From: Amblyomma americanum
Taxonomy: Eukaryota > Arthropoda > Arachnida > Ixodida > Ixodidae
Length of the DNA stretch: 64,000 nt
Assembly (NCBI RefSeq): GCF_052857255.1
Contig: NC_135497.1
Location: 345,749,751-345,813,750 of the forward strand
Reading direction: 5' to 3'
A program made the translations under genes and the position numbers. This document shows, piece by piece, positions 22,555 to 63,800 of the stretch (the first letter of the stretch is position 1; each line of letters begins with the position of its first letter). The notes under the pieces were generated by a model. It was not told where the DNA came from. It did no database searches and was given only the letters and a program-made list of their open reading frames with translations.

Positions 22555-22729
22555 CCATTGCATGGAGCTTAACGTTTAAGTCTACGAGCTACAGAGCTTA
22601 GAGCTTTTAATCGCGTGCATGAGTCCTTTCTCCAAAAGCGGGTTTTGATTGCTCAATGTTGTGAAGCTTCAGCTTACTTTCAATTGGAACGCTTGAAAAA
22701 AAAAATTAATTGGGTCTGACTCAACCACA

Positions 22730-22733
<4 letters not shown>

Positions 22734-22762
<29 letters not shown>

Positions 22763-23310
22763 TGTATGTATGTATGTATGTATGTATGTATGTATGTATG
22801 TATGTATGTATGTATGTATGTATGTATGTATGTATGTATGTATGTATGTATGTATGTATGTATGTATGTATGTATGTATGTATGTATGTATGTATGTATG
22901 TATGTATGTATGTATGTATGTATGTATGTATGTATGTATGTATGTATGTATGTATGTATGTATGTATGTATGTATGTATGTATGTATGTATGTATGTATG
23001 TATGTATGTATGTATGTATGTATGTATGTATGTATGTATGTATGTATGTATGTATGTATGTATGTATGTATGTATGTATGTATGTATGTATGTATGTATG
23101 TATGTATGTATGTATGTATGTATGTATGTATGTATGTATGTATGTATGTATGTATGTATGTATGTATGTATGTATGTATGTATGTATGTATGTATGTATG
23201 TATGTATGTATGTATGTATGTATGTATGTATGTATGTATGTATGTATGTATGTATGTATGTATGTATGTATGTATGTATGTATGTATGTATGTATGTATG
23301 TATGTATGTA
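22734..23310. repeat. (ATGT)n microsatellite, about 144 units
   Basis: About 577 bp of uninterrupted TATG/ATGT repeat. A transitional block of CGCA/CGTA/TGCA units (23311-23351) joins it to a (ATGG)n array. Because the unit is 4 bp, all plus frames and two minus frames stay open as MYVC or YIHT repeats; none is a gene. Confidence 0.98.
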
Positions 23311-23351
23311 CGCACGCACGTTACGTACGTACGTACGTATGCATGTATGCA

Positions 23352-23431
23352 TGTATGGATGGATGGATGGATGGATGGATGGATGGATGGATGGATGGAT
23401 GGATGGATGGATGGATGGATGGATGGATGGA
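23352..23431. repeat. (ATGG)n microsatellite, about 20 units
   Basis: This is a perfect GGAT/ATGG array directly beside the 3' end of the minus-strand LINE fragment at 23432, where it would be the (CCAT)n tail. Confidence 0.95.
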
Positions 23432-24000
23432 TACGGCTGAACCCTTTAAATCGGGCGGTGGCTCAAGCCACCTAGCCATGACGTATGAAATTTTACTCTT
23501 CTCTTGATTTTAGCCACCAATCAGATAACCTTCGCTTGGTTATTTCTACCCGCTTAAAATCTGCTTTCCCTTCACTGTCCTTAAACCCCAATGCCTTGGG
23601 TAAGTCAGCCCCGCTGCCTTCCACTGCAGGGTGAAGCCCTTTACAGAAAAGTATCAAGTGTTGAGCCGTTTCCTCCTCCTCTCCGCACGCAACTCACAAT
23701 GTGTCTATCTCATGGTACCTGACTCTATATGTCTTAGTCCGTAAAACTCCCGTCCTGGCCTCAAACAACAAAGAGCTTCCCCTACAATTATCATATTTTC
23801 TTTGGCAATTTCCTGCTTAGAAATCCTGTATGTTCCCCGTGCTGATTTCGTCAGCATCCCTGTTTAACACAGAGCTCTCTCTGTTTCTTTAACCTTTTTC
23901 TTAACCAATAATTGCTGATTTGCCCCCTACTGCTGTCCACATTCACTGACGGCAGCGCCATCTCCTGCCTTTCTAGATTATGACATAACGAACGTATACG
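23432..24000 (-). mobile_element. LINE 3' fragment with C-terminal Cys/His motif and (CCAT)n tail
   Basis: On the minus strand, just upstream of the (ATGG)n repeat, a decayed frame reads CGEEEETAQHLILFCKGL, then DLPKALGFKD and RRLSDWWLKS. The C-x-E-x3-T-x2-H-x4-C arrangement is the zinc-finger-like end of many LINE ORF2 proteins. The coding fragment stops about 70 bp from a (ATGG)n array (23352-23431). On the element's own strand that array is a (CCAT)n tail, the expected 3' end. Internal stops show it is dead. The upstream boundary near 24000 is a guess. Confidence 0.6.
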
Positions 24001-24729: not shown

Positions 24730-27700
24730 TTCACATTGCCATGACCTTGAATTGTGACAATCTGTGTGGGGCGGTGCTTCCATTCTTGGACTGTTCCTGT
24801 TAAGAATGCTTTGCTTTTGTATGGTGAAGCGCCTACTTTGCGCATATGACCCAATCCTTGTGAAGTGCAACTTTGGCGAGAGATTCATTTATCGCGGAAT
24901 TGGGGGGAGGGGGAGAGGGACAATATCCTCGCCCTATATTATCCTCTAGATACGGCTGTTAAGCGCATGACATCGCCCATGGTAGACGAGGTCGCGTCGG
25001 TCGTACTGAAGCCACCCGATGTTTTCCGTTCCACCTCAGCACCAAAATGAAGATGAGCAAAACTGTCGAAGCCGCTTAGCTTTCTTCCAGAAAGCTAGCC
25101 TCGGCAAAACAATTCTTATATCGTGCAACTCTTGTAGCCCTATTGCATTCGCTTGCTGCAAACCTCCTGTACACTTAAATGCCAAACACCCAATTCAATC
25201 CAAGCTTCAATTCATCCATCCTGGGGAGCAGCTCCTCTACAAATACCCACGTCAGCAATCTGCTCAAGGACCCATAGCTAAGAGACGGCAGTGCGATCGT
25301 TGGCTCAAACCCCTGCACCTGCTTTGGGAATCCTGTCGGGAGCGCGGCAGTGATTGCTAGGTTTGAAAAGAGGAGCGAGCGCTCCTGTCTGACGATCGCA
25401 AGGCGAAAAAAATATTTTGTTTAAAAGCACCGCGTACACTTGCGGAGATACGAGGTAAGGGAGCAGCACGACACCCATTAATACTTGCGTTCGGGGTGCC
25501 GCTCCACACGCAGAGAGTGCACCCATTCATCGACAAATTGCCCCCTTCCTTCCCCCCCCCCCTTCCCACGCATGGCGCTCTTAACGAAATATCGCGGAAC
25601 GGCTGTGAGCCCAATTTAATATCCTCCCCACGAAGCGGAATAATTTGGCTCTCGCACGTGTGAAACTTAAATCACCGCACGCGTATGTAGAAGTTCCATA
25701 TTATTTTCGTTGTCGGCGCAGCACACTTATTTTGCGTGAAGTGCGATAAAATGTCGCGAGGTAAGAAATTTAATCTTTGCATGTAGAGTGCACATGCCTT
25801 CTTCTCTTACATTTTCGCTCGAAGAATTCTTTCGAATACAGCATCTACCTGTCTGGTCTCTTAAGCGGCGGCAGACGTAAAGAGAGCTATCCTATGACTA
25901 GTGCCACGCACGGTGGTAAAAAAAAAAAAACGGCACTGTGCCGGGCAAATTTTCCCTGAAACTTAAAATAAACCGCGGAATAAAACGCGGCTAACACTGA
26001 GCTGTTCAAGTGTTCGCGCACAGTATGTTGCCCGGCTCAAAAATATAAGCGAAACTAATCTGTCGGCGAAATATAGAAAAATAATTCTCGCTTGCCAACG
26101 AATCCCGCGGTTCCTCATGCTTACAGAAAGGCTCAAATTAATTTCAACTTTTGTACTGAGAGAAAATTTTAATCGTTACTCGTTAGAGCCAGCGCAATGT
26201 TCTGAGTTTTCTTCACACTGCTCTCACTTCCTTGCTGTGCCCTCCCTGTTTCAGCACGCGGAGCTTGCTCGCAGTTCAGCTCTCGCGCCTAAAGATCTCG
26301 GGACCGCGCCTATCTTACCCCCTGGCTTATCTTTCGGGATAGACTGCGATATGTTCGCGTAAAATGACAGACAAATTGCGGCACGGCAGGTTTGGCAGGA
26401 GAAAAATATGGCTTTGGGAAATATGCGAAGAGCGGCCACATCCGTAAGTTATAGTCGTCGTTTCGTGTCTACTTTCTTTTGTCTTTTACAAACATCCGAA
26501 AACACAGCAAGGACCAAACCAACGGCCACGTGTGTACAGTACTCACGGATTGAAATAGGACATTCGGAGCGCGTGGCCGTCGCTTCATGGAGCGCCGCCC
26601 GTAGACGCTCATGGAACCAAGGTGGTGCATTGTGGTATGGCGCGAGAGGGAGAACATCTACAAAGCAGAATTGTTCCTTCCAGTAGCCAATGAGCCGGCC
26701 TGTGGCTTACCACATGCCTGCGTGGCACTGCAAGGCTAGCGCTCCGAATGTCCTATTTCAATCCGTGAGTACTGTACAGTCAAAGCATCCTGTTTTTCTT
26801 CATCCCGCTAACGTTGTGACACCGCTATTCAGGCATAGCGTCGTCCTCATTTAATTAGGCAGGCCGACGGAGAAAAACAAACAAAATGCAACATGTCTAT
26901 CCCTTCGCCGACAGTAGAAGAGAAGCTTGAATCTTGAGCCTTCGAAAATCAAATAGAACAAATAGCCGCAGGCTAACATACCCACCGTGGCTACCCACGG
27001 TGGCTACTCACATACCAACGGTCCATCGTCTATCACCACAGCGCCAGCACGCTATATGCTTTCAGTTAAGCTTGAAATATTCGCCGCTGCCGATGCCGCT
27101 TGTGAGCGGCGACGCTATAGCACAGAATAAAGCCTCTCCCTAAGCAACCTCACGCGCCATCGAGCTAATCTCTTTATGGCCATCGCTTCATCTCTCCAGT
27201 CCATTCCGAGCCTGACGTTCAGTTACAAAAATGTGCCGTCCAATAAACTGAATTATTTGCACAACTTTTACTTGGTTTCTATAGGACTTTGATCCAAGCA
27301 GTTTCGCAACGTCGATCTGAATGCGCAGCCTATTTGCTCTGTTCCACGCTTGTTATTCAGGCCGCTATCGGAAGGTGTTTATGCTCTGCATTGCGGGCCA
27401 TGCACGTGTTCTTCAGCTCAGTTTGTTCCAGGCGTCGGTTAAGATATTCCAGCCGTCACCCAGTTTAACGTTGCCGCCAATCTGTCTGATCCGGGCGCTA
27501 AGCATTTAACCGGACCGCCAACTGATTTAGTCTCCGGACTAGAGTCATTAATACATGCGCCAGGTAACGCAGTCAGCTCGTGTAAACGAAATTGTGAACG
27601 TGGCTGGAAAACACATAACTGACGTGAACTAAGTAAGAAAGCACAAATTTTTACCACCATATTTCAGCTTTGCCTCATGGCAAGCTTGTTTTCTTTTCTA

Positions 27701-33401: not shown

Positions 33402-34374
33402 ATGGCTCCTCAGCAGTGTTTCTCTTGTTCGAAGGGTTTTGGGAAAAAAACTATGTTTTTAACATGCAGTAACTGTGAAAAGTCTTCACATTGAATGCTC
33501 AGGTACAAGTAAATCAGCTCTTAAGGACTTAGGTTCAAGCGAATTATCGGTCTGGAAGTGTGTTGACTGCACGGAAACAAAGTATACTGATGATGATAAA
33601 TCATGTAGCGAAAATGATGAGAAAAAGCAGAGTAGTAGGCCCACGTCTGCCAAAACAACCGCTATGAACACTCCGATTGAAGGCTTCAGCCAGAAGCTTA
33701 CAAACATTTTGAGATGTCTGGAATCGCTTGAAAACAAGGTTGACAAACAGAGCGCTATCACACAGGCAGTACAAAAAGCAATGGAAATGCTTGCTTCCAA
33801 GTACGACGAACTCTTGTCAAAGATTACCAGTCATGAAAACGAGATAGCTAAACTAAAAAAAAACAACTGAAGAACTGACTGAAAAATTTTCTGAAAATAG
33901 CACTGAGCTTTCCAGGCTGAAAGATTGTGTTGAAAGCGCTGAGCAGTACACAAGGCGCAGAAACGTAGACATACACTGGATAGCTGAATACCCTAATCAG
34001 GAAATTTACCAAGTTCTGACTGACATCAGTGCAAATTTGAAGGTACAGACACCGGACCGGAGTGACAGAGTATAGAAGGGATGCATCGACTCAAGACACA
34101 AAAAGATAAGATTCCACCGATTATTGTTCGCTTTGTGAACCAAGCCGCGCTGGACATGTGGCTGGCGAAAAAGCGAGCGCTGCAAACAGAAAAAAATCTA
34201 CGTATATACGAGACCAGAGCTAAAAAAATGCTGCTTTCGGATTGCAAGAAGCTTGCGAAAGATCGAAGGTTCAAATTTGTCTGGGTGAGCAACGGAAAAA
34301 TTCTCGTCCGAAAAAGTGGAGGTGCATTGATCATTAGTATCAACTCTGAGAGAGATCTCGAGAAACTAACGTAA
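33402..34374 (+). pseudogene. CR1-like LINE ORF1 (zinc-finger/coiled-coil protein), frameshifted
   Basis: The ATG at 33402 starts MAPQQCFSCSKGFGKK and runs into a PHD/RING-like cysteine cluster: CFSC, LTCSNCEK, then HIEC and VWKCVDC. A 2-nt loss near 33485 moves the frame, so the rest of the finger continues at 33475. After it comes a Gln/Glu/Lys-rich segment with a coiled-coil pattern (~33690-33870), a second frameshift in the A-run at 33854, an RNA-binding-like region (RRRNVDIHW...YQVLTDISANLKVQ), and a C-terminal part (34081-34371) with FVNQAALDMWLAKKRAL. ORF1 proteins of this form are found in CR1/L2-type LINEs of arthropods. The TAA stop (34372-34374) overlaps the ATG of ORF2. At least three lesions make this copy non-functional. 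Confidence 0.8.
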
Positions 34375-37258
34375 TGATTTCCTTTGACTCATTTCGCGAG
34401 TGGAACGTTCATGTTAAAACTGCAAAAAGCGATGGAGATTGGAACCACAGAATCGGTTTGCTGCATGTCACTATTAGAAGTCTGAATAGATACTGGGATG
34501 AATTAGGATTGATTTTAAAGACTGTGGTGGTTCCTTTTGATGTTATTATTCTCACTAAGTTTAATATAGATGTGTCGAGAAAATGTGCATTTGTATTTGC
34601 TGGGTACACTCAGTACACATTGTGCCGTGAAAACCGTAAAGGGGGCGGTGTTATGCTGTTCATAAAAGATGAGTGGGTGACGAATAGAATTGACGTCAGC
34701 TTTATTCACGCAGAGGCGGTCACTCTCTCTACTTCCAAAGGAAATACAGATTATACTTTATGTGCAATATACAGGCCACCAAATTCGAATGCCAGTGCAT
34801 TTCTAGATGAGCTGTATACCTTTTTTTCATAAATACATGAATGAGAAACACTTCAATATTGCAGGGGATCTAAACATAGACATTATGAAAGAGACAAAAG
34901 GTATCACAGCAGGTCACCTCAATTTGCTTGCAGAATTTGGACTTGTGAAAGTAATTAATGGATACACGAGAGAGGAATACTTAGGTGCTAATATTACCAA
35001 GTCATGCATTAACCATATAATTATTCGTTTGCAAAACCAGCAATATGTTTCGAGAGTTATAAAGCAAAAACTAGCTGATCATTACTTTGTAACGGTTAAA
35101 ATTTTGCTGACGATCATACAACTAATCGAGGCGTTATTACAGGTTCTGTTGTAGATAACAGAAAAGTAGACCAATTAGTTCGTAATGTTAGCTGGAGTTT
35201 CTTTTTAGATTTAGATCACATCAGCTTATATAACAAAACTGTTTAAATCTTTCGCAACGTCTATGCACAGTCAACTAAATCTGTTAACATCAAAATAAGG
35301 AAAACAGATAAGAAGTGGATAACTCATGAGATAGCAGAGTTGTGCTGCGTGAAAGATAAAGCATGGCTAAAATTAAGGAAGCAACCTGAAGATAAAGCTT
35401 TAAGAGATGAATATCGCGCATTGAGGAATCGGGTAACGGCGAAAATGCGACTGGCGAAAAGATCTTTTTACGCACGACAGTTTTCACTGAACGAACATGG
35501 CGGAAAGAAAACGTAGAAAATTGCCAATGAACTGATGGGTAGACCGAAAAAGACTTCCGTTGATGAAGCAGTAAAGAAGAATTTTCCAAAGAAGAACGTG
35601 AAAGTGCTCTGTGATAAATTTAATGATGTGTTTGTAAACACAACAGAAAAGTTGCGAAATATAGCAGTCAGTAGGCCTGTACCACATCGACCGAAACGGG
35701 CATGTGTACATACTGCATATCTGCCTATGATAACAGTTGACGAGCTATGGAGCATTATATGCGGAATGAAGCAGTTCAAGCCACCTGGATATCATGGCAT
35801 TCGTCTAAGGGATCTTTACAGAAATTTTGACGTTTTGAAAGACGTGGTTATGAACATACTGAATGGTGTATTCGAAACTGGTGATATATTTCAAGAACTT
35901 AAGATATCTTGTCAGGCCGATCTAAAAACATGGGAAGAAAGGTGATTGTACAAATTATAGGCCAATCGCAATACTTTCATCAATAGCACATATTATGGAA
36001 AAGCATGTTGTGTATGTTCTGCAATCATTCTGTGAAAAATATTCTTTGAACAATGCTGAACAATTTGGCTTCACAAGGAATAGAAGTACGACTACACTTC
36101 GTGAAGATTTTTCTGACTATGTTTATAATGCACTATGAAATCAGCACATTGCGTTAGCCTTATTTCTGGACTTAACTAAAGCATTTGACACAGTAGATCA
36201 TACGCTATTACTCATAAAATTAAGCTCACTTGGTTTTCGCGGTCATTTTAACAAGTTTTTTGTCAATTAATTTACAGATACGCTGCAGTGTGTGGTGCTT
36301 GGTAATATGCACGGAGATTTAAAAAAATGTTAAATTCGGTGTACCACAAGGATGTACACTTGGCCCACTGCTTTTTAATGTATATGTATCTGATTTGGGT
36401 TTATTGCAGCTTAAGTCAAACGTTTTTCAATACGCTGACGATAAAGCGCTAGCACTTGAAGCTACTGATTATCGTAAATGCGTGGAATCATTTCAAATAG
36501 ATTTAAGTGGAGTCGTTAACTGGTTCTCGCAAAATTTCATTTTTTTAAACGTTAACAAAACAAAACTGATATGCTTTAAAAACCTTCATAAAATTGTTAC
36601 TTTAAACCAACCACTGCATCTTCACACATCCCACTGTTACCAGCGTAAATGTAAATCTATGCAAATAGAGAGACCAGTTCTTTATCTGGCCATCCACTTT
36701 GACCAACACCTTACATAGAGCGACCACAACGTCTACCTCTCTAGAAAGATAATGTACATTGCGACTATCATGTATCACCTTCGTGGCAAATCTCCGCTTC
36801 ATCTTAGACGACTGATCTATATTAGTAGAACCTGTTTTAAAGGACGGCATTACTGTATATGGTAACTGCTCCGAATACAAGAAAAAACATTAAATGCTAT
36901 CCTAAAGAGAATAGTGAACACTATATCTTACGCCACTAAACTACACTCGGTTGATATGAAAGGAAAATACGATGAGTTAGGCATCCTTCAGATTCGTGAA
37001 TTCTTTCACTTTGTTGTGTTAACACGGTATTATTATTCAAATGAATATCAGACTCCCGTAATAAAAGATGTCACCTTGAGAAAAACGGAATGTTTTGTTC
37101 AGCCACAGGTTTATACAAACTATGGTAAAAAGATGCGCAATTATTATGTACCGGCTGTATTTAATAAAATTCCCGATGATCTATGTATTGCAAATAACAA
37201 GCGTAGGATGATGAAGGACATAAGAAATTGGTGTGCAAATGTATTGCCTTCTGTATAG
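34374..37258 (+). pseudogene. CR1-like LINE ORF2 (endonuclease-reverse transcriptase), multiply disrupted
   Basis: The frame opens at the ATG overlapping the ORF1 stop. The apurinic-like endonuclease is recognisable from IRSLNRYWDELG, VVPFDVIILTKFNI, RKGGGVMLFI and AIYRPPNS. After a frameshift in a T-run near 34825 it continues with AGDLNIDI, YTREE and VIKQKLADHYF. Reverse transcriptase motifs follow in shifting frames: RPIAILSS (~35960), ALFLDLTKAFDTVDH (~36150-36200), GVPQGCTLGPLLFN (~36338-36380) and the catalytic YADD at 36431-36442. The C-terminal 115 codons (36914-37258) are open. Several stops and frameshifts mean the copy is dead. Catalytic residues that remain visible are otherwise conserved. 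Confidence 0.9.
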
Positions 37259-37670
37259 CTTGAGTTCTTTCGTATGTGCTATTTGGTGTTCACGGACTTT
37301 TTTCACTATGTTAGTATAACTGTTTAGACAAGAAGTGTATGCATATAGACTTATTTCTCCACCCGCTGCCTGAGCAGCCAACAAGGAAAATGTGCTTAGG
37401 CAGATCAGAATTTATGAATGTGCACGCATAAAGACGAATATCAATTACAGCTGCTGCTGCAGTTCAGGCAAATCTGCTGGGAGGTAATGGGCTCTCCTAT
37501 TTATCTCCAATTAGCCTTGTCCTGTGCCAGCTGCGGCCACCGCTTCCCTGCGCATTTCCTAATCTCATCTGCCCGCTCCTCTCTGTCGTCCAGTTTTCCT
37601 TCCGTTGGAATTCAGTCTGTCGCCCTAAGCAACACCCTCTCAATGCTAAGGCCTCTCCACCGGCCGCGTG

Positions 37671-37696
37671 ACGTCACGCCAAGGGACCGTGCAGGC
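37671..37696 (+). repeat. Left terminal inverted repeat of P-like transposon
   Basis: The 26 bp match the reverse complement of 41681-41706 at 22 positions, the first 13 without a mismatch. The outer 8 bp (37663-37670) are the candidate target-site duplication. No equivalent pair was seen elsewhere around the transposase gene. Confidence 0.7.
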
Positions 37697-38305
37697 CCCG
37701 CGCTCCGCGATTTCAGCGCGCCGCGCCCGTCTGCACTATTCGGGTACTGCCGTACGTAGCTGCCTTATAAGTGATTCCTTCATTTTCATTTTTGTCGTTG
37801 CTGCAGAAAAGAAATTCGCTAGTTTGTGCGCGCCTTAGGCTATCATTTTATCTGCTTTATATATTTTTTTTATTGCAGAACACCTTATTGTCAAGAAAGT
37901 TCGAGCTGCTAATACAGTTTTTTATAATAAACAATTTAGCATACGGCCGCCAATTTCGCATTATTGGTCATTATAATAAAAAATTGATTAGTTAATTTCA
38001 ATTAATCATCTAATTATTAGGTTCTATCACGTACATGATGTCTGCCGTGCGGTAAAATCCATCCGCACAGACCGCACATGCGTATATCTAGTTGTTAAAG
38101 TAGAAGTTCGTGAACATTGAAAAAAAAAACACCGTCTACTGCGCATTGTGTTAGTTTTATTCTGTATTGTGTTTTGCTTAAAGCTTTCACACACAGCAAT
38201 AATGACACTCACAATAATGTTGCGCTGTTGAGTATTTGTACAGCTAATCTGACCCTTACAATAAAAAACGACGAGACACCAGCAATGAAGTGTGCGCAAA
38301 GCATT

Positions 38306-38311
38306 TTTATT
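38306..38311 (-). terminator. Polyadenylation signal of the P-like transposase
   Basis: An AATAAA hexamer on the minus strand lies just past the TAA stop at 38329-38327. Its position fits a short 3' UTR ending inside the transposon. Because it has the same orientation as Frq, it could also act as a premature poly(A) site for the host transcript. Confidence 0.55.
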
Positions 38312-38326
38312 GCTTGGGAATAAAAC

Positions 38327-40987
38327 TTACTTCTTCTTAAGCGTTGCTGCTTTCCGGGCTGCGGCCTTCTGCTGCGCATTGTCTTGTATGGCATCATTTC
38401 TTAGTTTGCAAAAGTTGTTTAGAACAACGTTGGTTGCAACGCGTACTACCAAGCGCAGGAGAGTTTGTGCAGTGTGGCCATTTTCACATGTCTCAATGTC
38501 GTGTTCGTCCAGGAGGGAAATCGTCTGTGAAATCACGACACCACGTTGATTTCTACAGGAGAGAAAATCTTCCGCGGTTGCTCCAAAAGACAACTTCTCT
38601 GCAACTAGTTTAGTCATCAGTACCATGTGAACTGTGCATGGCTGGGGAAACTTCAGCCCTCCTCTCGACAGGTTAGCTATCATGGCAGTATTTTCCGCTT
38701 CGATCTCTCGATTTTCAATCACCAATGTGCTGAAGCAAGCAGAACATGAAAGCTTCTTTAAAGCAGCATGAGCAGCGTATCCTGCAATGTAGACAATAGC
38801 ATCCATGTCAGAGTGGGCGTGTGTAATATCGTCGTCGCTGACAGCCACAGAAAAGTTGCATGGGACAAGATCCTCACTTACGTCTTCAAACTCTGTTTCC
38901 TCGCGTGGAAATGTCAAAAGTTTTTGAAGACGAAGCTTCTTCTCACATTCGTAGAGCTGACGCACGGAAATGTGGTACTGTGATCCTGCCAGCTGGCGGT
39001 AACGGCCGAACCGGTCTTCTAGCGCATCCGTCTGAAATTTGCCCAGCAGTACGTACTTGAAGTGAAGTTCTTCTAAGCAGTAGCGCGAGAGTTCTACCAG
39101 AGAATAGCATGTCAGTCGCAAAGCACTGTGAGTCTCTTTCGTCAGCGAGCCACTGGTGATGTTTATTCTTGCCCAAGCGTCCAACCAGTCCACAACGCCG
39201 CTCAGGAAAGCTAACTGTGTGTCATCAACAGACCTTACAGGGTCTTGCATGCTGTCCCTTAGCCTCTGGCCTTTGCAAGGGGTCTTAACATTGACTATTT
39301 GCCACCATGTGAGGATAACGTCAATGAAAAGAGCAGTCGACTCAGCTTGAGGAATCTTGAACGCGGAACCATGTGTCCTGAGGGCATTTGAAACAAACTG
39401 ATTAATGACGTCGAGAGCGAGCTTTACATTTTGCCGCTCCATTGAGGTTGGATTCACGGCTTTTGCGTTCAGTCTGTAAGCAGCCTTCACAAGCGACGTC
39501 TTCTCTGAAGAATAAAGCTGCCGCACAGCTGCGAAAGAAGCAGCTTTCATACGAGGAGGCCCTTCGGGCATTGCTCCACTCAAGTCCATTTCAGGGAAAT
39601 AGAGGCATGTTCCAGGGTTTTTCTGGTTAATCCAATTGTTCCTAATGCACTTCAAGAGATGCACAGGATCGACCACGTAGAAAAGAGGGCGAGCGTTATC
39701 GGCTGGATGGGGATAGACAATGCTCACCTGAGGACTTGTAGCAAATAACGACATCATCTTGCGGTTCAGAGCATTGTTGTCCGTTATCACAGCGATAATT
39801 TTGAGCCCCATTTTCTCAACATTAATGATTATGTTCTTAGCATGCTCGTGCAAAATTTCTGCGCTCAGTTTGCTCACAGGTAATATGTGAATGACGTCCT
39901 TGTTTGCAGAAAGGAGTGATTGTACCATGAACACATGGGCTGTTGTTGCTGGTTCCGTTGAATGAACCGACGATCCTACTATTGTGCCCCCTTTGTAGTC
40001 GAAGTATGGTTTTATGTGGATCTCATCGATCATCAGGGTCACTGTCTTCTCGTGGTCTTTCATTGATTTGACTCGTTCTCGGATGTAGGAGAGACAGTGC
40101 GGTTGATTTTGCTCCACAAGAGGGTCAGCTTTGTAATTTGAGCAAACACGGCGCAGTGTGGAAGGATGGGGCAGAATGATTCTTGATGCAGCTCTTGTGA
40201 AGTGATATGCGTGAGGAGAAATTGAATTCAAAATACTGGCGAATACCAGCAGCTCTGCGCTATACACATGCTGTTTCGCGAGGAGAAGCTCTATCTGCTC
40301 AACCAGAAATTTCAGCAAAGAAGACTGTTCTTTCGTCGTATCACTGTCCTCAATGAGGTCTGCAAGCAGTGAACCGACAAACTGCAATACTTTAGTATGT
40401 TTCGACTCTTTCGTCACCTCAGGTATATTATGCAAGCCTATCTCGAGTTCTTCTAGCAGCAAGGACAGGCTGGAGGTGTCGCATACTTGAGCTGGCAGAA
40501 TCCTGCCTGAAGGAAGCGACAGAAGCTTCACTCCATTCAAGAAAACAGAAAGTGACAGATCAGGGAGAACTACCAAGGCGCATTTCACATTAGGTGAAGG
40601 ATCATTCTCGATGAGAAGGAACCTAACGCACTGCTCATCGACAGAAACGGTCCAGAATTTCGTGTTGCAGATTCCAGGCAACTTAGATTTGAACTCCTCG
40701 TAAGATGAAACTTTGTTTCTTTTCTGTTCAAGCTCATTAGACTGAAGTGACTTCCTCATAGCCTCCTGCAAAGCAGCGTTTTCCCTTCTTGCTTTTTTCG
40801 TCTCTGGCGATTCACTCCGTCCAGGCGTTGAGGACAAGTATTTTGGGCAGTTTGGAAAAACAGAAGGCGCAGCATCAATCTTCAACTGTAGCCTGTCACG
40901 CTTCACCTCTATTATTTTCCCTGTCAGTTCATCTTGGTGTGACAACGTCGTAATGAAGTCGCCTGCGTGGAAGTGCAGTTCACACAC
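38327..40987 (-). CDS. P-like transposase exon 2: RNase H-like catalytic core, insertion domain and C-terminus
   Basis: One uninterrupted frame of 886 codons follows the acceptor TTCTCGTGCAG and starts VCELHFHAGDF, the second half of the THAP finger. The full protein would be 936 residues. In order it has the THAP finger (to about residue 95, ending APSVFP), a charged helical/coiled region (~105-150), and an RNase H-like domain with MIDEIH (Asp371) and VITDNN (Asp453). Next come a region with VVDPVHLLKCIRNNW (~488-502), typical of the GTP-binding insertion domain, then TDALEDRFGRYRQ (Glu707), the likely third catalytic acid, and a C-terminal IAGYAAHAALKKL-C-x2-C segment. This order is that of THAP9 and Drosophila P transposase. 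A minus-strand AATAAA lies about 15-20 bp past the stop. An in-frame ATG at 41014 is inside the intron and is not the real start. Confidence 0.9.
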   Translation of the reverse strand: MCELHFHAGDFITTLSHQDELTGKIIEVKRDRLQLKIDAAPSVFPNCPKYLSSTPGRSESPETKKARRENAALQEAMRKSLQSNELEQKRNKVSSYEEFKSKLPGICNTKFWTVSVDEQCVRFLLIENDPSPNVKCALVVLPDLSLSVFLNGVKLLSLPSGRILPAQVCDTSSLSLLLEELEIGLHNIPEVTKESKHTKVLQFVGSLLADLIEDSDTTKEQSSLLKFLVEQIELLLAKQHVYSAELLVFASILNSISPHAYHFTRAASRIILPHPSTLRRVCSNYKADPLVEQNQPHCLSYIRERVKSMKDHEKTVTLMIDEIHIKPYFDYKGGTIVGSSVHSTEPATTAHVFMVQSLLSANKDVIHILPVSKLSAEILHEHAKNIIINVEKMGLKIIAVITDNNALNRKMMSLFATSPQVSIVYPHPADNARPLFYVVDPVHLLKCIRNNWINQKNPGTCLYFPEMDLSGAMPEGPPRMKAASFAAVRQLYSSEKTSLVKAAYRLNAKAVNPTSMERQNVKLALDVINQFVSNALRTHGSAFKIPQAESTALFIDVILTWWQIVNVKTPCKGQRLRDSMQDPVRSVDDTQLAFLSGVVDWLDAWARINITSGSLTKETHSALRLTCYSLVELSRYCLEELHFKYVLLGKFQTDALEDRFGRYRQLAGSQYHISVRQLYECEKKLRLQKLLTFPREETEFEDVSEDLVPCNFSVAVSDDDITHAHSDMDAIVYIAGYAAHAALKKLSCSACFSTLVIENREIEAENTAMIANLSRGGLKFPQPCTVHMVLMTKLVAEKLSFGATAEDFLSCRNQRGVVISQTISLLDEHDIETCENGHTAQTLLRLVVRVATNVVLNNFCKLRNDAIQDNAQQKAAARKAATLKKK

Positions 40988-41262
40988 CTGCACGAGAAAA
41001 TGAAGCAAGGCCATTCGCCATGACTCTCCATTGCCTAAAACACTAAGTAAAAAGAGTCTGAATAGTGAACAGCTTTTACATATTTACACAGCTTTTACAC
41101 AAGCCTTATGCACATCCACAGAACTAAATGCTTCCTGGACAATTCATACATAAGTGTAAGAAGTGATATCATTGCCTACAAAGACAGCATGCCTTTCCGG
41201 GAGCGACAGCTCACAACTAAGATAATTACCAGCGCCTATTAAGCAATATTTCAGAGTCTTAC

Positions 41263-41412
41263 CCTCGAATGCTCTGTAGGTGTGAAATCCTTCCGTGGAA
41301 TGGCTCGCAACCAGGCTTTTCTTCGTACTTCGTCTCTTGGGAAGCAATAAACACGTACTTTGGGACCATTCTGGTAGTTCCCGCGGCACCCGGGAACACA
41401 GCACCGGCCCAT
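41263..41412 (-). CDS. P-like transposase exon 1: start of THAP zinc finger
   Basis: This 150-nt exon encodes 50 residues. The ATG at 41412-41410 is preceded in frame by a TGA two codons upstream, which fixes the start. The frame reads MGRCCVPGCRGNYQNG, then a CFP motif, AWLRAIPRKDF, and ends TPTEHSR. It ends at a good donor (AGG|GTAAGA) in phase 0. With exon 2 it completes the C2CH THAP signature: C4-x4-C9, then 42 residues to C52-x2-H55, with the expected Phe-Pro and Trp. THAP domains bind the subterminal DNA of P elements. The exon lies hidden under a longer, unrelated frame on the same strand and needs the 275-bp intron (41262-40988) to be spliced. Confidence 0.85.
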
Positions 41413-41680
41413 GTTTCACGAAGTTGCACTCGCTACACGGCAGGCAATCAGTTTCCCATTCGTGCGCTAGCACAGGTACGCACGCCACACAAGAAACGGC
41501 CACACGAAACAGACACAGCCGTGCGAGGAGCGAACGGAAATGCACCCAACGCCAGGCTGAAAGACTCAAGCAGCAGCTAGACGCTCACTGCAAGACTGCG
41601 TTCGTGTCTGTGCTTGCCCGGGCAAGCGCGAGCACATCGAGGGAGACAACCGAGCGGAGCGGAGCCGCGCTTGGTGAGCA

Positions 41681-41706
41681 GCCTGACCGGACACTTGGCG
41701 TGACGT
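41681..41706 (-). repeat. Right terminal inverted repeat of P-like transposon
   Basis: This is the partner of the left repeat. It lies 269 bp upstream of the transposase start codon, so the promoter must sit in this short GC-rich leader. The following 8 bp (41707-41714) match the left flank at 6 positions. Confidence 0.7.
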
Positions 41707-41714
41707 AGCGCGTG

Positions 41715-44700
41715 TGGAAAGGAGGGCCTGGAGAGGCCTGAAGAAAGTATTTAGAGGGTGTTGCCCTAAGGGACCACCGGCTCTTCGCAGTGCATGTCCG
41801 GCCGAGGTCTATTTCCTGTTTTGGATTACAGTGATGACATCATTAACAAGTGTTCGCTATCAAACCCATGCTGTTTATTCTTGTCACTTACTGTTGTTCC
41901 TGTCATATTCCTTTCCATAGCTCGCTGTGCAGTCCTTTCTTTAATTCCATGCCTTTTTGTTAACGGCCAAGTTTCCACCTCATACAGGTGAGTTTAGTAG
42001 CAGGATAAAACTATGAGAGTATTTCTTTTCAGGGGACCTCATTAGCTGCTAGCTGTGACCAGAGAATTCCTGCTAAATGCCCTACTCCGCCTTTTTATTC
42101 CCCCGGTATTTTTCTTGATGTCCGGATATGCGGTCACTGCACCTGGCATCACCTTGTATTCCCTTATCCCTTTTAATACCTCCCGGACTACAGCTAACTG
42201 TTGATTTAAACCCGGACAACTGGAAATTAGTTTTCTTCATACTGCGCTGAGGCTTACCGTTGGGCTTTGTGCGGCCTCAATTATGCGTCGACATTAGCTA
42301 ATTTTCTCTCATTTAAAATACTGAAGTCCGATCTGAAATAAAACTACCGCAAATAATATCAATAAACTAAGCATATTACAACCAATGATCATCAGAGTTA
42401 TTACACACCCGCATTACGATTGTAATGTCGACACACAAATGCAAAAACCTTGTCACAACACGTGTTGAAAGCAATTGCAATTGTCATCTTTGCCTTGGTC
42501 TAATCAGAGAACGAAAAGCGAATTGCAATATTTTAACAAGCATAGCGAGCAGACCATTAAAGAGTCAACACGTTACTCCGCACGCAAAATCGTGTTTTGG
42601 GAAGTGCATCCCTTCCTTACTAATCACGCATTCCAAAAATTACAATAGCAAATTCTTGATCAACCGAACACGTACCTAAACAACAAGATCGATATCTGAA
42701 GTCTTAACCCAAATAAACTGAAATGTATGTTCGTCTAGCATACTGTTTTTTTTATTCTAACATACATACTCCGAGCCTGATGACGGACAATGATAAACTT
42801 TTTTTTTTTTCAACATGCACCTCCCTAGAATGATTTCGTTAAATCTGCACAATATGTACCACTGTATCCAGCGTTCTGTGTGACCTATGTGTCTTGTGTC
42901 TTCTTTTCATTGTTCGTTGGATTTGAATAATTTACAGGTTTTAGGGCTTTTCTGCGCAAATATTCTAGAACTAATTTATTTTTTACTTTGAAAGCTTGTA
43001 TATTGTTTTTCGCATGGAAGCTTCTGCGCTCAATGTATATAGCTTTGCTTGATACGAATTTATTCTTTTGCGTATAAATTTAAATTCTGCAAGGTGTACA
43101 TTTACCATTGCTAATATTAATATTATCATCCCTACGATTTTGTGCTGCTGCTGCCTTCTAGGGGACGAAGACTATTTATTGTCAAGCTCGCCTCCCCCAT
43201 CCTTCATGGAAATAAAATTAAATGAAATGGAAGCGAAGGAAACAAGCAGGCAAATGATTAGTATGAACCCGTATATCGAACTTGCCTTTTACAACACAGG
43301 CGAGTATCAGTTCAATATCAGTACACTATTTACTCCATTGCTCGACCGTCGTGATTGCCGATTCCTTATCCCATGGAATGTAAAATAAAACAAAGTTGAG
43401 GCTGAAGTGCGTTCAGGCTTTCAAATGAAAGACTGAGCCCCCAACGTGAGATTAAAGCGACCGGCATGGCGTATCGCAAATCGCTGATTCAGCGGCGCCG
43501 GGAGAAACATGACACCGGAGACTGTGCTGCATGTGCTCCCAGCACGAGGACGAGCGTAAGTGCGCGATATAGACAGCGCCAGAGAATGCGAGAAAGGACA
43601 TGCGTTTTTTTTTGTTTTGTTGTAGAGAGCGTATACATCCGCAGCGTCCCCGATGTGCGTTAACGGCAGAAATATATCCAACAACGAAGCAGATATAAGG
43701 CGAATGCGTAATCGCCGAGGCGACGGCACGACGCAATTCAGTGTTAATCGCGGTATCGGCCTTCTGTCGGAATCTTTCGGAGCTCTCTTCAAAACAAGGG
43801 CTGCATTGAAACCTTTTGCGCAGTAGCAGCGGTAACAGCTTTCCTAGTTGGAGAGCGCTCGAAGGCAGCTGCAAGAAAAAGCTCGCCGCATTGGGATCGA
43901 TTGCGCCGCCGTCTCCCTTTGTTTTCTACATTTGCAGCCGGATTCCCGCCTTGCCCTGACCGCCATTATTACCTTTAGTCGAAAAAATCTCATTTTCCTG
44001 CTAAATCCTAAAGTTCCCCGAAAAAAAGAGAAGGTTCTCCAATTGAACACCATTGTGTGCCTTTAGTGCTATTAAGCCAGTAATAAAGGTAATTTTGCAA
44101 TAAACGGAAGAAGTGTGTTGTGAGATGCGGTGCCGAAAGTTTATTTCGACCGAATAACTAAGGACTCAATGTCTTGAGAATTCCACGCACTATACTCAAG
44201 AAATGAAGCACGAACAAAAATACTTAAGAGCCAACACAAAGACATGAACATATTACCTCTAGAACAGGAAATGCAGGTGAGGATGATTAACACTTACAAA
44301 GAACCTTTGCGCTTCCGTAGTGAAATTAAGCTCCTCTTGGCGTCAGCTTCCCCGGGCTAAGATTTTCTCATTTTATTCGTGTATTAATTTACTTGTTCAC
44401 GTTTCATTAGTTTAGTATAGTAGAGCCATATCCAGCTTTGCATTTGCACGCCACAGTCTTATACCCATCGAAAAAATTTTATTGTGCACCAAAACAGAAT
44501 TAGGCTTCCCAGCAAACTAAACAGTGAAAAGGTGCCTTACACTGAACGTTCTGCACATTTTGTGCTTTCTGCGATTTTAGTTAAGCGGTACTTACACGCT
44601 TTCACAGCGTCAGAACCTGGTTTGCTGTGCCTCATAAAAGAGGCTAGTTTCTTCGAGTGTTACAGTGGGCCGCTTTCTGAACGCGCTGTCGTAAGAAATC

Positions 44701-55489: not shown

Positions 55490-56003
55490 TTTCATGCTGA
55501 AGGTAAAAGCGCAAAAAACAAGGACACAGAAGAAGACTGACAACACGAGCGCTCACTTACAACTGATTTTATTTCATGCAAGAAACGGAATTTTATACTC
55601 TCATGAGCATGAGCTCTCATGGCACATGAGCATTCATTGGCTAAAATGAAAAAGCAAAGGAAAAGAGGGTCGTCGTCCTCTTTTTCACAAGTGCAAAGTC
55701 CTTTACGGCAACAAATGTCAAATTACGCGAGAAATTGAGGCTTTGGATATAGCGCGAGGTGGCGATGACTGCGTAAGTTCTCCGTTAATTCTGCTGCCAC
55801 AAAAAGAGATGCCCTATCTTACATCTTTCAAGTGTGACGCTCGATGACTTATCTTTCACCACTCTGTGGTAATGCCTTGCAGGCATTATCGAGAGTATAA
55901 AATTCCGTTTCTTGCATGAAATAAAATCAGTTGTAAGTGAGCGCTCGTGTTGTCTGTCTTATTCATGTCCTTCTTTTTTGCGCTTTTACGTTCAGCATGG
56001 AAA
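55490..56003. mobile_element. Fold-back element with about 112-bp arms
   Basis: Arms 55490-55602 and 55891-56003 are reverse complements. The inner 64 bases, ending TTTTATACTCTC in the left arm, are identical, while the outer part has several substitutions and a 1-nt indel. The spacer is about 288 bp and non-coding. The outer ends contain a GTAAAAGCGC block next to CATGCTGAA. The element lies in the 5.3-kb Frq intron. The superfamily is not clear. Confidence 0.75.
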
Positions 56004-60872: not shown

Positions 60873-63800
60873 TAATGTGTTGGGTTGTGTTGGGCTGGGT
60901 TTAATGGCACATTATGCAGCTAAGGCCATCGTGCGCCCAGCACAAGGTATAGAAGTTTTCTGCAGAATTATCTAAAAATGTGAAAGGTGATCGGTGGTGT
61001 AGAGGACCTAAAACGTTTATTTTGCTGCCTAGTGGTGACGAAGTGAAGAGATTTTAAAAATGGCCGCTAGTAAAAGCATTGAAGAGGGTCGGGTAACCTC
61101 AGTGACCATCCATGGCGGGGCAAGTATCTCGAGGCTCCCAACCAATCAAGAAAGCCCTCAGCCTTCTTCTCAGATGTGAGAAAGTGGCTGAGGTGTATTG
61201 TAAAATCAAGCGAAGCACTGGGTAAGAACTCACAATTTCTGAAGAAAACCTGATTCTCTTAGAAAGTTAAAAACACAATACATGTCAAGAATTCTATTAT
61301 CACTTAAGAGCGGCGCTGGGTGAGAAGGAATGCATTCGTTATAAAAAAAGACTAAAATACTTCTCCCTAAGATTTTCCAGTTTAGAACATGCCAATAAAA
61401 TATGGTACAGTGTGAGCTCCTCTTCAGATTTTTCACAAACAGGATTGTCTTGTTTCGTCAGTAAGCAGTTACGTGTCAGGTGTGTATGTACCATGCGAAG
61501 GCGACGTACGATTCCTTCAATAAAAACTTTATGGTGTCTGCACGACTTTCATTCATCCAAGGTGGGCTTTATGAACTGTATTTTGTTGTTGAACTCATTA
61601 TACCACTCTTTCTGCAATTTGTTCTTAAATTTATTATGTATCAACTTCATGCCGTCTTTATAAGATATGTTCACATTTTTTATTTCACCACTCCGAGCTG
61701 CTGAGTCAGCTCTCTCGTTACCCTCTATACCGAGGCGGCTCACGACCCGGCAGAAGCTAATCACATGTACTTGTGTGGTTACATTTTCTGTGTTGTGTAT
61801 GATGCGGCCTATTTTGCCTAGAGGCATACTCACTGCATAACATTTGGCAGTAAATATTGATACATAACTTGGCAATCTCACTATTTTTCCCACTTCCCCT
61901 GTGCTACTGCACTTCCAACGTGCGTTGTTTTCGAGCCATCGGTGTAAAATTCTATGTAGCTTGCATATATCTCTTTCAAAGCCAAGTATTCTTGTAGTAT
62001 TAAGTGTTCATGTTGTGTTTGCTTTTTTGCAAAACTGTGTTAGCGTGAAGTCGCACGCAGCGGGAAGGCAGTACCATGGCAGCAATGGATCGTGTCTGGG
62101 GGCAATTTTAGGTAGGGCATCTTGTATTCCAAGTTCATGACATGCATCTTCAAAGCATAATAACAAAGGTCTGATTGTTTGTGGTTTATTATTGAACAGA
62201 GGTCTGGATTTGCACTTGGTAACTGTGGGGTAACAAAGATGTTTTGGTACGGATCTTATTTCCAGTACTTATGCACAGGTAAGCGACGCTCTTTTGCTTT
62301 CAAGGGATGGTTCATTATTTTCTACATATGAACTGTTTATGGGGGTTAATCTGTATGCGCCAGTTGATAGATGCAGACCCAGGTCTTGTACAGGACCTAG
62401 TTTTTTTAGGTATGATGGTCTCGCAGTTCCATGCACAATGCATCCATCGTCTAAAATGGACCATACTACTTAGCGATAAATCTGTAAAAGGCATAACCTG
62501 TCGGACCCCCAGTGTTTCCGTGAGAGTACTTGCAGTATAATTATGGACCGGGAAGCTTTCTTTTTGAGCGTGTTTATGTGAGGTAAAAATTCGAGCTTTC
62601 TGTCTAAATTTATGCCTAAAAATTTGTGGTTCCTGTTTTACTGACAGTGCAATTTCATTTAAATGCAAGGTGGGATCAGTTTGCAAGCCTCTTTTGAGTG
62701 AGAAAAGGTACACTGGTTTACTGGGGTTTAACGACCGAAAGCGACTCAGGCTATGAAAGACGCCGTAGTGAAGGGCTCCAGAAATTTCGAGCACTTGGGG
62801 TCTTTAACGCGCACTGACATCGCACGGTACACAGGTCTCTATAATTTCGCCTTCATCGAAATTCAGCCGCCGTGGTCGGGATCGAACCAGCGTTTTTCGG
62901 GTAAGCAGCTGAGCTCCATAACCACTGAGAAACCGCGGTGGCTAGAGTTAGAGAGTGAGAAAAGGGCAGCAACTGTTTTTTGTGGAAAAAGCTTACACCA
63001 CTGCGGTCTGCTCAAATCTCTTGTTTGTTCAGTGCGAGATGTATCTGTCTCTCGCATATTGATAAGCTGAAAGTTGTGAATGCGATTTGAAGGTCATACA
63101 TGATAGACTTCGGAATTATTTACGATATGGAAATCATTTTCACGATAAAGAGCGTGGTACTTAGAATACACACCTGTGGTGCCCCATCTTCTTGGATAGA
63201 TTTTTTCTAAAGTGTCGCACCTAGGCGTACATGAAATGAACGATCAGGAAGAAAGTCTTGCAAACAGTTAAGCATCCTGCCACGGATATCTAAGTCCACT
63301 AGGTCACGAAGAATCTCATACCTCCAGGTGGTATCATAAGCTGTTTCCAAGTCAAAAAATTCTGCTAGGCAGTGCTGTTTGTCTATGTACGCTTCATGGA
63401 CTGAGTGCGTTTTCAAGACGGACGAGATGGTCATTTGTACAACATGCTTTTTTAAATCCACATTGGTGGACGTCAAGAAGCTTGCGTGATTCAAGGATGA
63501 ACATCAATATAATATTGAGCACACTTTCAAAACATTCGGCAAGACATCTTGTGAGAGCTATTGGCCTGTAACTCCTAGCCGAAGTTGGCGGTTTTCCAGA
63601 TTTATGTAATCGCGCAATCATGGCCTTTTTCCACGCCTCTGGCATTTTTCCTCATTGCTATATTTTTATAAAAATTACAGAAGAGCTTCTACAGCATCTT
63701 CAGAGACGTGGGCAAGCATTTTGTAATGCATTTCATCAGCGCCCGGTGCTGTCTGTTTGCCGGGCGACAGTACTGTACGGATCTCTTGTAGTGTAATTAA

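Follow-up and report, generated by a model that had tools for sequence, protein, structure and literature searches.

A structurally complete, potentially autonomous P-superfamily transposon in the tick Amblyomma americanum, and a tick-like transposase clade with replaced GTP-contact residues

The window considered here, to whose positions all coordinates refer, is a 64,000-nucleotide stretch of the genome of the tick Amblyomma americanum (NCBI RefSeq assembly GCF_052857255.1, contig NC_135497.1, positions 345,749,751 to 345,813,750 of the forward strand). Between 37630 and 41763 it holds a 4134-bp element which is, with considerable confidence, a P-superfamily DNA transposon, structurally complete and potentially autonomous, lodged in an intron of a gene resembling those of neuronal calcium sensors. 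It is a new and well-formed member of that superfamily in a tick, and its ends are here corrected from those given in an initial annotation made from the letters alone. Its gene lies on the minus strand and runs in two exons from 41412 to 38327, and the joined translation, of 936 residues with no internal stop, is identical letter for letter to an A. americanum protein (P0001, LOC144094883) that NCBI names only as uncharacterized. The parts of the element and its immediate flanks are as follows.

37623..37629, no strand: left copy of the 7-bp target-site duplication, CCCTAAG
37630..37647, plus strand: left terminal inverted repeat, perfect over 11 bp and matching the right one at 16 of 18 positions
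37650..37659, plus strand: left copy of the subterminal repeat GGCCTCTCCA, 20 bp inward of the left end
37671..37683, plus strand: left copy of the subterminal inverted repeat ACGTCACGCCAAG, 41 bp inward of the left end, where the initial annotation had placed the end
38306..38311, minus strand: AATAAA polyadenylation-like signal, about 15 nt past the stop codon
38327..40987, minus strand: exon 2, 2661 bp, 886 residues (51-936) and the stop codon
40988..41262, minus strand: 275-bp intron, GTAAGA...GTGCAG
41263..41412, minus strand: exon 1, 150 bp, encoding residues 1-50 with the N-terminal half of the THAP zinc finger
41694..41706, minus strand: right copy of the subterminal inverted repeat ACGTCACGCCAAG, 57 bp inward of the right end
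41729..41738, minus strand: right copy of the subterminal repeat GGCCTCTCCA, 25 bp inward of the right end
41746..41763, minus strand: right terminal inverted repeat
41764..41770, no strand: right copy of the 7-bp target-site duplication, CCCTAAG

The terminal repeat reads CAACACCCTCT from 37630 and, inverted, from 41763, and the CCCTAAG duplication directly abuts it on both sides. Both ends begin with CA, as does the end of the fly P element. The initial annotation had taken a 26-bp inverted repeat for the ends; that repeat exists (37671-37696 and 41681-41706) but is subterminal, the ends found here lying 41 bp and 57 bp further out, and ends at 37671 and 41706 were rejected. Its accompanying 8-bp near-duplication (GCCGCGTG and AGCGCGTG) is not confirmed; it falls within the same imperfect terminal repeat region. 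The 8-bp sequence GCCCTAAG (left copy from 37622) is also present on both sides. The duplication is nevertheless read as 7 bp, because on the right the first G of GCCCTAAG at the same time closes the symmetrical terminal repeat, and 8 bp is possible should the right end have lost its last base. A palindromic target site was inspected by eye and dropped, given that a single site cannot demonstrate one. The expectation by chance was gauged with 60 windows simulated by a first-order Markov model, in which inverted repeats of at least 10 bp with abutting direct repeats of at least 6 bp, a criterion weaker than the real ends, occurred 0.117 times per window. The real window has five such matches outside a tandem array and one inside it, and the five amount to three structures, the P element and two others that resemble short miniature inverted-repeat transposable elements (MITEs).

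The long uninterrupted exon noticed in the initial annotation was found mechanically as a minus-strand open reading frame (38327-41014), within which exon 2 contributes 886 codons, and the hidden first exon that had been postulated to complete the THAP finger is exon 1: the finger is complete in the spliced protein (Pfam PF05485, E 1.5e-15). Exon 2 encodes the remaining part of the finger, a coiled coil, a helix-turn-helix, an RNase H domain interrupted by an insertion domain, and a C-terminal part. PF05485, PF12017 and PF21787 all exceed their Pfam cut-offs, giving respectively the THAP finger, a P-type helix-turn-helix and the RNase H catalytic domain. The three acidic residues put forward as the catalytic D-D-E, D371, D453 and E707, pair in alignment with D230, D303 and E531 of the fly P transposase. 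The D(2)H motif also aligns with that of fly P, its D490 and H493 each being present in 50 of 51 homologues. The structure predicted for the tick transposase, modelled as the protein chain only, without nucleotide or DNA, has the fold of the fly P transposase, insertion domain included. The product is thus, as had been proposed, an intact-looking 936-residue transposase of THAP9 type, and the suggestion of a P-superfamily element in a tick-like chelicerate is borne out by the identity of the protein with one of A. americanum.

Like the tick protein, fly P transposase (PDB 6p5a, 6pe2; PMC7776569) combines a THAP finger, a coiled coil, a helix-turn-helix and an RNase H triad into which an insertion domain is set. 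Shared too are the D-x2-H motif and the presence of terminal and subterminal repeats spaced unequally at the two ends (PMC7776569). The differences from fly P are a single intron followed by one large exon in place of four coding exons, 936 residues as against 751, a terminal repeat of 11-18 bp rather than 31, a duplication of 7 bp rather than 8, and a distance from the D(2)H motif to the catalytic Glu of 217 as against 192. Galileo of Drosophila, a sister member of the superfamily, resembles the tick element in its duplications, usually of 7 bp though at times of 8 bp, its THAP domain and its D, D, E and D(2)H residues, but has long foldback-like terminal repeats (PMC4168063). Zebrafish Pdre2/zfTHAP9 and human THAP9 share the overall protein plan and the catalytic triad (PMC10983969, PMC8230255), and Pdre2 in addition has short terminal repeats beginning with CA plus subterminal repeats, but an 8-bp duplication (PMC10983969). 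Anopheles gambiae is a further arthropod with P elements of several coexisting subfamilies; these, unlike the tick element, have terminal repeats of 27-31 bp and 8-bp duplications (PMC1562414). The initial annotation's remark that detailed study of P elements is confined to flies holds for mechanism, but databases contain many related transposases from ticks, locusts, beetles, spiders and cnidarians.

How the tick element would move is inferred from fly P. By that analogy the THAP finger and helix-turn-helix of the 936-residue transposase would bind the terminal and subterminal repeats, whose inner copies stand at unequal distances (41 and 57 bp) from the two ends; the ends would pair, and the RNase H triad D371/D453/E707 would excise the element and integrate it elsewhere through joins staggered by 7 bp.

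The intact ends, together with at least four other P-type proteins of A. americanum (four, of 66, 65, 63 and 47% identity, stand among the 120 listed of 157 matches), argue against domestication. Several considerations weigh against the reading of the element as a complete transposon. Dermacentor andersoni has a protein with 86% identity across 72% of the length, a likeness that slow evolution of a domesticated gene might equally produce; past 18 bp the left and right terminal repeats diverge by gaps and substitutions; and the nearby repeats, from a long interspersed nuclear element (LINE) and MITE-like elements, mean that the intron collects inserts of any age. In addition, scans of bacterial/archaeal and viral collections confirmed no related DNA, which is unsurprising for an element of a tick; tick genomes as such are not part of these collections, and the nulls are no evidence on copy number. 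Within the window, blastn found no further copy of the P element.

That a THAP9-type host gene was domesticated and still sits between its old repeats is distinctly improbable. The D. andersoni identity would suit it, as would the short branch of the tick protein (0.051 versus 0.13 for D. andersoni), of the kind that host-gene selection would produce, and the view at DNA level is of one copy, that in the window. However, the longer D. andersoni branch is as in a decaying copy and the D. andersoni model has neither the THAP finger nor the C-terminal part, unlike a conserved gene, while perfect terminal repeats and a duplication are present around the tick gene, and related tick protein clusters reach up to 65 member sequences (P0027) among the matches listed, as multi-copy families show. 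A different type of alternative is a recent insertion that is already immobile, its protein intact and transposition not completed, a situation for which zebrafish THAP9, which excises Pdre2 without integrating it (PMC10983969), provides a parallel. The divergence of the ends beyond 18 bp is consistent with it and an intact coding sequence does not prove activity, but the gene revealed no defect and the two copies of the duplication still match perfectly, and this alternative is considered unlikely, if less so than domestication. For the element as a complete transposon, potential autonomy is plausible. Horizontal transfer between Amblyomma and Dermacentor was considered in the light of the 86% protein identity. 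A P-type transposase (P0115) also appears under a metagenome-assembled genome of Spiroplasma ixodetis, where it is probably contamination from an arthropod host.

The initial annotation had also pointed to a motif resembling a guanosine triphosphate (GTP)-binding insertion. The domain is there by predicted fold, but five of the eight published GTP contacts differ. In fly P transposase the contacts are D528, K385, K400, V401, S409, F443, D444 and N447 (PMC7776569). Three are the same in the tick protein (V571, N616 and D704), and where fly P has K385, K400, S409, F443 and D444 the tick protein has replacements (R555, N570, N579, W612, Q613). No gap falls in the stretch about D444 (WFDIFNSK against WWQIVNVK), whether aligned by phmmer, by profile or by MAFFT. 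By contrast, the GTP-contact residues of zebrafish THAP9 are reported as conserved (PMC10983969), and D519 of human THAP9 matches fly D444 (PMC8230255).

To place this in a broader setting, rows were picked by hand, mainly by length, from three separate similarity searches with one query each, giving a fly-P-like set (38 of 94 matches), a tick-like set (51 of 120 listed) and a Hydra/coral-like set (32 of 120 listed). With each search built around a different query, proteins intermediate between the sets may have been missed, and P0213 is counted twice, in the fly-P-like set of the two-set alignment and in the Hydra/coral-like set of the three-set tree. In three trees a branch with a support of 100 divides the tick-like set from the rest, and the separation holds at that support after dropping eight long rows and after adding the third set, with the sister set of the clade unsure (94). 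These three, like the tree behind the branch lengths quoted above, were quick trees with support from the Shimodaira-Hasegawa-like approximate likelihood ratio test (SH-aLRT) only, and for the three the program warned of long branches meeting at the stem of the tick-like clade.

In the joint alignment of the fly-P-like and tick-like sets, Asp stands at the D444 position in 35 of the 38 fly-P-like proteins (the others being P0124, named Repressor, P0125, of 575 aa, and P0179, from Anopheles) versus one of 51 tick-like proteins, among which 32 have Lys or Arg. Similarly K385 is Lys in 36 of the former and four of the latter, S409 is Ser in all 38 versus seven, and position 443 is Phe in 36 fly-P-like proteins and Trp in every tick-like one. 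With all three sets aligned, Asp at D444 is found in 16/16 fly-P-like, 32/32 Hydra/coral-like and 0/31 tick-like proteins (the sole tick-like row with Asp, P0013, was left out of the 31-row subset), and Ser at S409 in 16, 32 and 4. K400 carries little information, since the fly-P-like proteins themselves differ there (20 K, 9 N and 9 R of 38). The stretch from the D(2)H motif to the catalytic Glu is also longer in the tick-like set, with a median of 213 versus 194.

The catalytic residues being kept, loss of activity does not account for the clade, and a changed or missing nucleotide step is what we infer. A distinct clade with D444, K385, S409 and F443 replaced, and with the GTP step probably altered or absent, is what the alignments point to; the tick-like branch would probably recognise the nucleotide differently or need none. 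In fly P the pocket holds GTP against the terminal transposon base. A further and tentative proposition, with somewhat less than an even chance of being right, is that a deep clade (arthropod by all names seen, several tick families with intact genes included) gave up the guanine-nucleotide step altogether. Its pocket would then have been remodelled, Trp taking the place of Phe443, Lys or Arg that of Asp444 in the majority of proteins, and small residues that of Lys385, and protein side chains or another cofactor would position the transposon end in place of GTP. Only a little short of an even chance is given to the view that GTP is still bound in the clade, in the same pocket but by other residues, the substitutions being without mechanistic meaning. 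In favour of this view are the retention of the V401, N447 and D528 equivalents in 46, 49 and 51 of the 51 tick-like proteins, the aromatic ring preserved in the change from F443 to Trp, the predicted preservation of the insertion domain fold, and the variability of K400 on the fly side as well. The distribution of Asp at D444 is difficult to square with it, as is the finding that D444C in fly P abolishes both excision and integration (PMC8230255).

As to the surroundings, a neuronal-calcium-sensor (frequenin-like) gene spans most of the window on the minus strand (2697-59861), with at least four recognisable EF-hand-type exons. With an NCS-1 query, tblastn located exons on the minus strand near 59.86, 54.54-54.44, 10.98-10.88 and 5.04-4.94 kb (E 5e-12 to 9e-5); a further match, at 2.77 kb, is weak (E 2.7). 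The second and third of these exon matches flank the P element, which therefore lies within a 43-kb gap and is oriented like the gene. On the plus strand a LINE remnant, split into several frames (34350-37255), ends near the left end of the P element and includes a reverse transcriptase domain at 36323-36715 (E 7.4e-11); another, weak reverse-transcriptase match, under the family cut-off (E 0.018), lies on the minus strand at 63210-63503. One MITE-like element (26539-26772, 234 bp) has long near-perfect terminal inverted repeats starting GTACTCACGGATTGAAATAGG and TGTACA on both sides. A second (55555-55938, 384 bp) has terminal inverted repeats of about 48 bp starting ACTTACAACTGATTTT and is flanked by the palindromic 8-mer GAGCGCTC, though its true end may be further out, as the flank similarity extends on both sides as the inverted repeat ACAACACGAGCGCTC. 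Several frames of both strands run open through a long short-period tandem array at 22672-23504 (YVCM and YIHT repeats).

On its own, a single such element is an ordinary find, its protein being already annotated as uncharacterized and relatives being common in arthropod databases. Searches of an open-licence literature library turned up no description of this tick element and none of the altered GTP residues, and replacement at the GTP site appears, from the sequences compared, to be what sets the tick-like clade apart within the P superfamily. Fly P transposase has been described as the only DNA transposase known with a GTP cofactor (PMC7776569). A clade with the catalytic machinery but with replaced GTP contacts is a natural comparison for the question of why the fly enzyme needs GTP; if the tick-like clade did give up the nucleotide step, it would represent P transposition without GTP. 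Genetic tools for ticks are few, and the element, if active, would be a P-type vector native to them.

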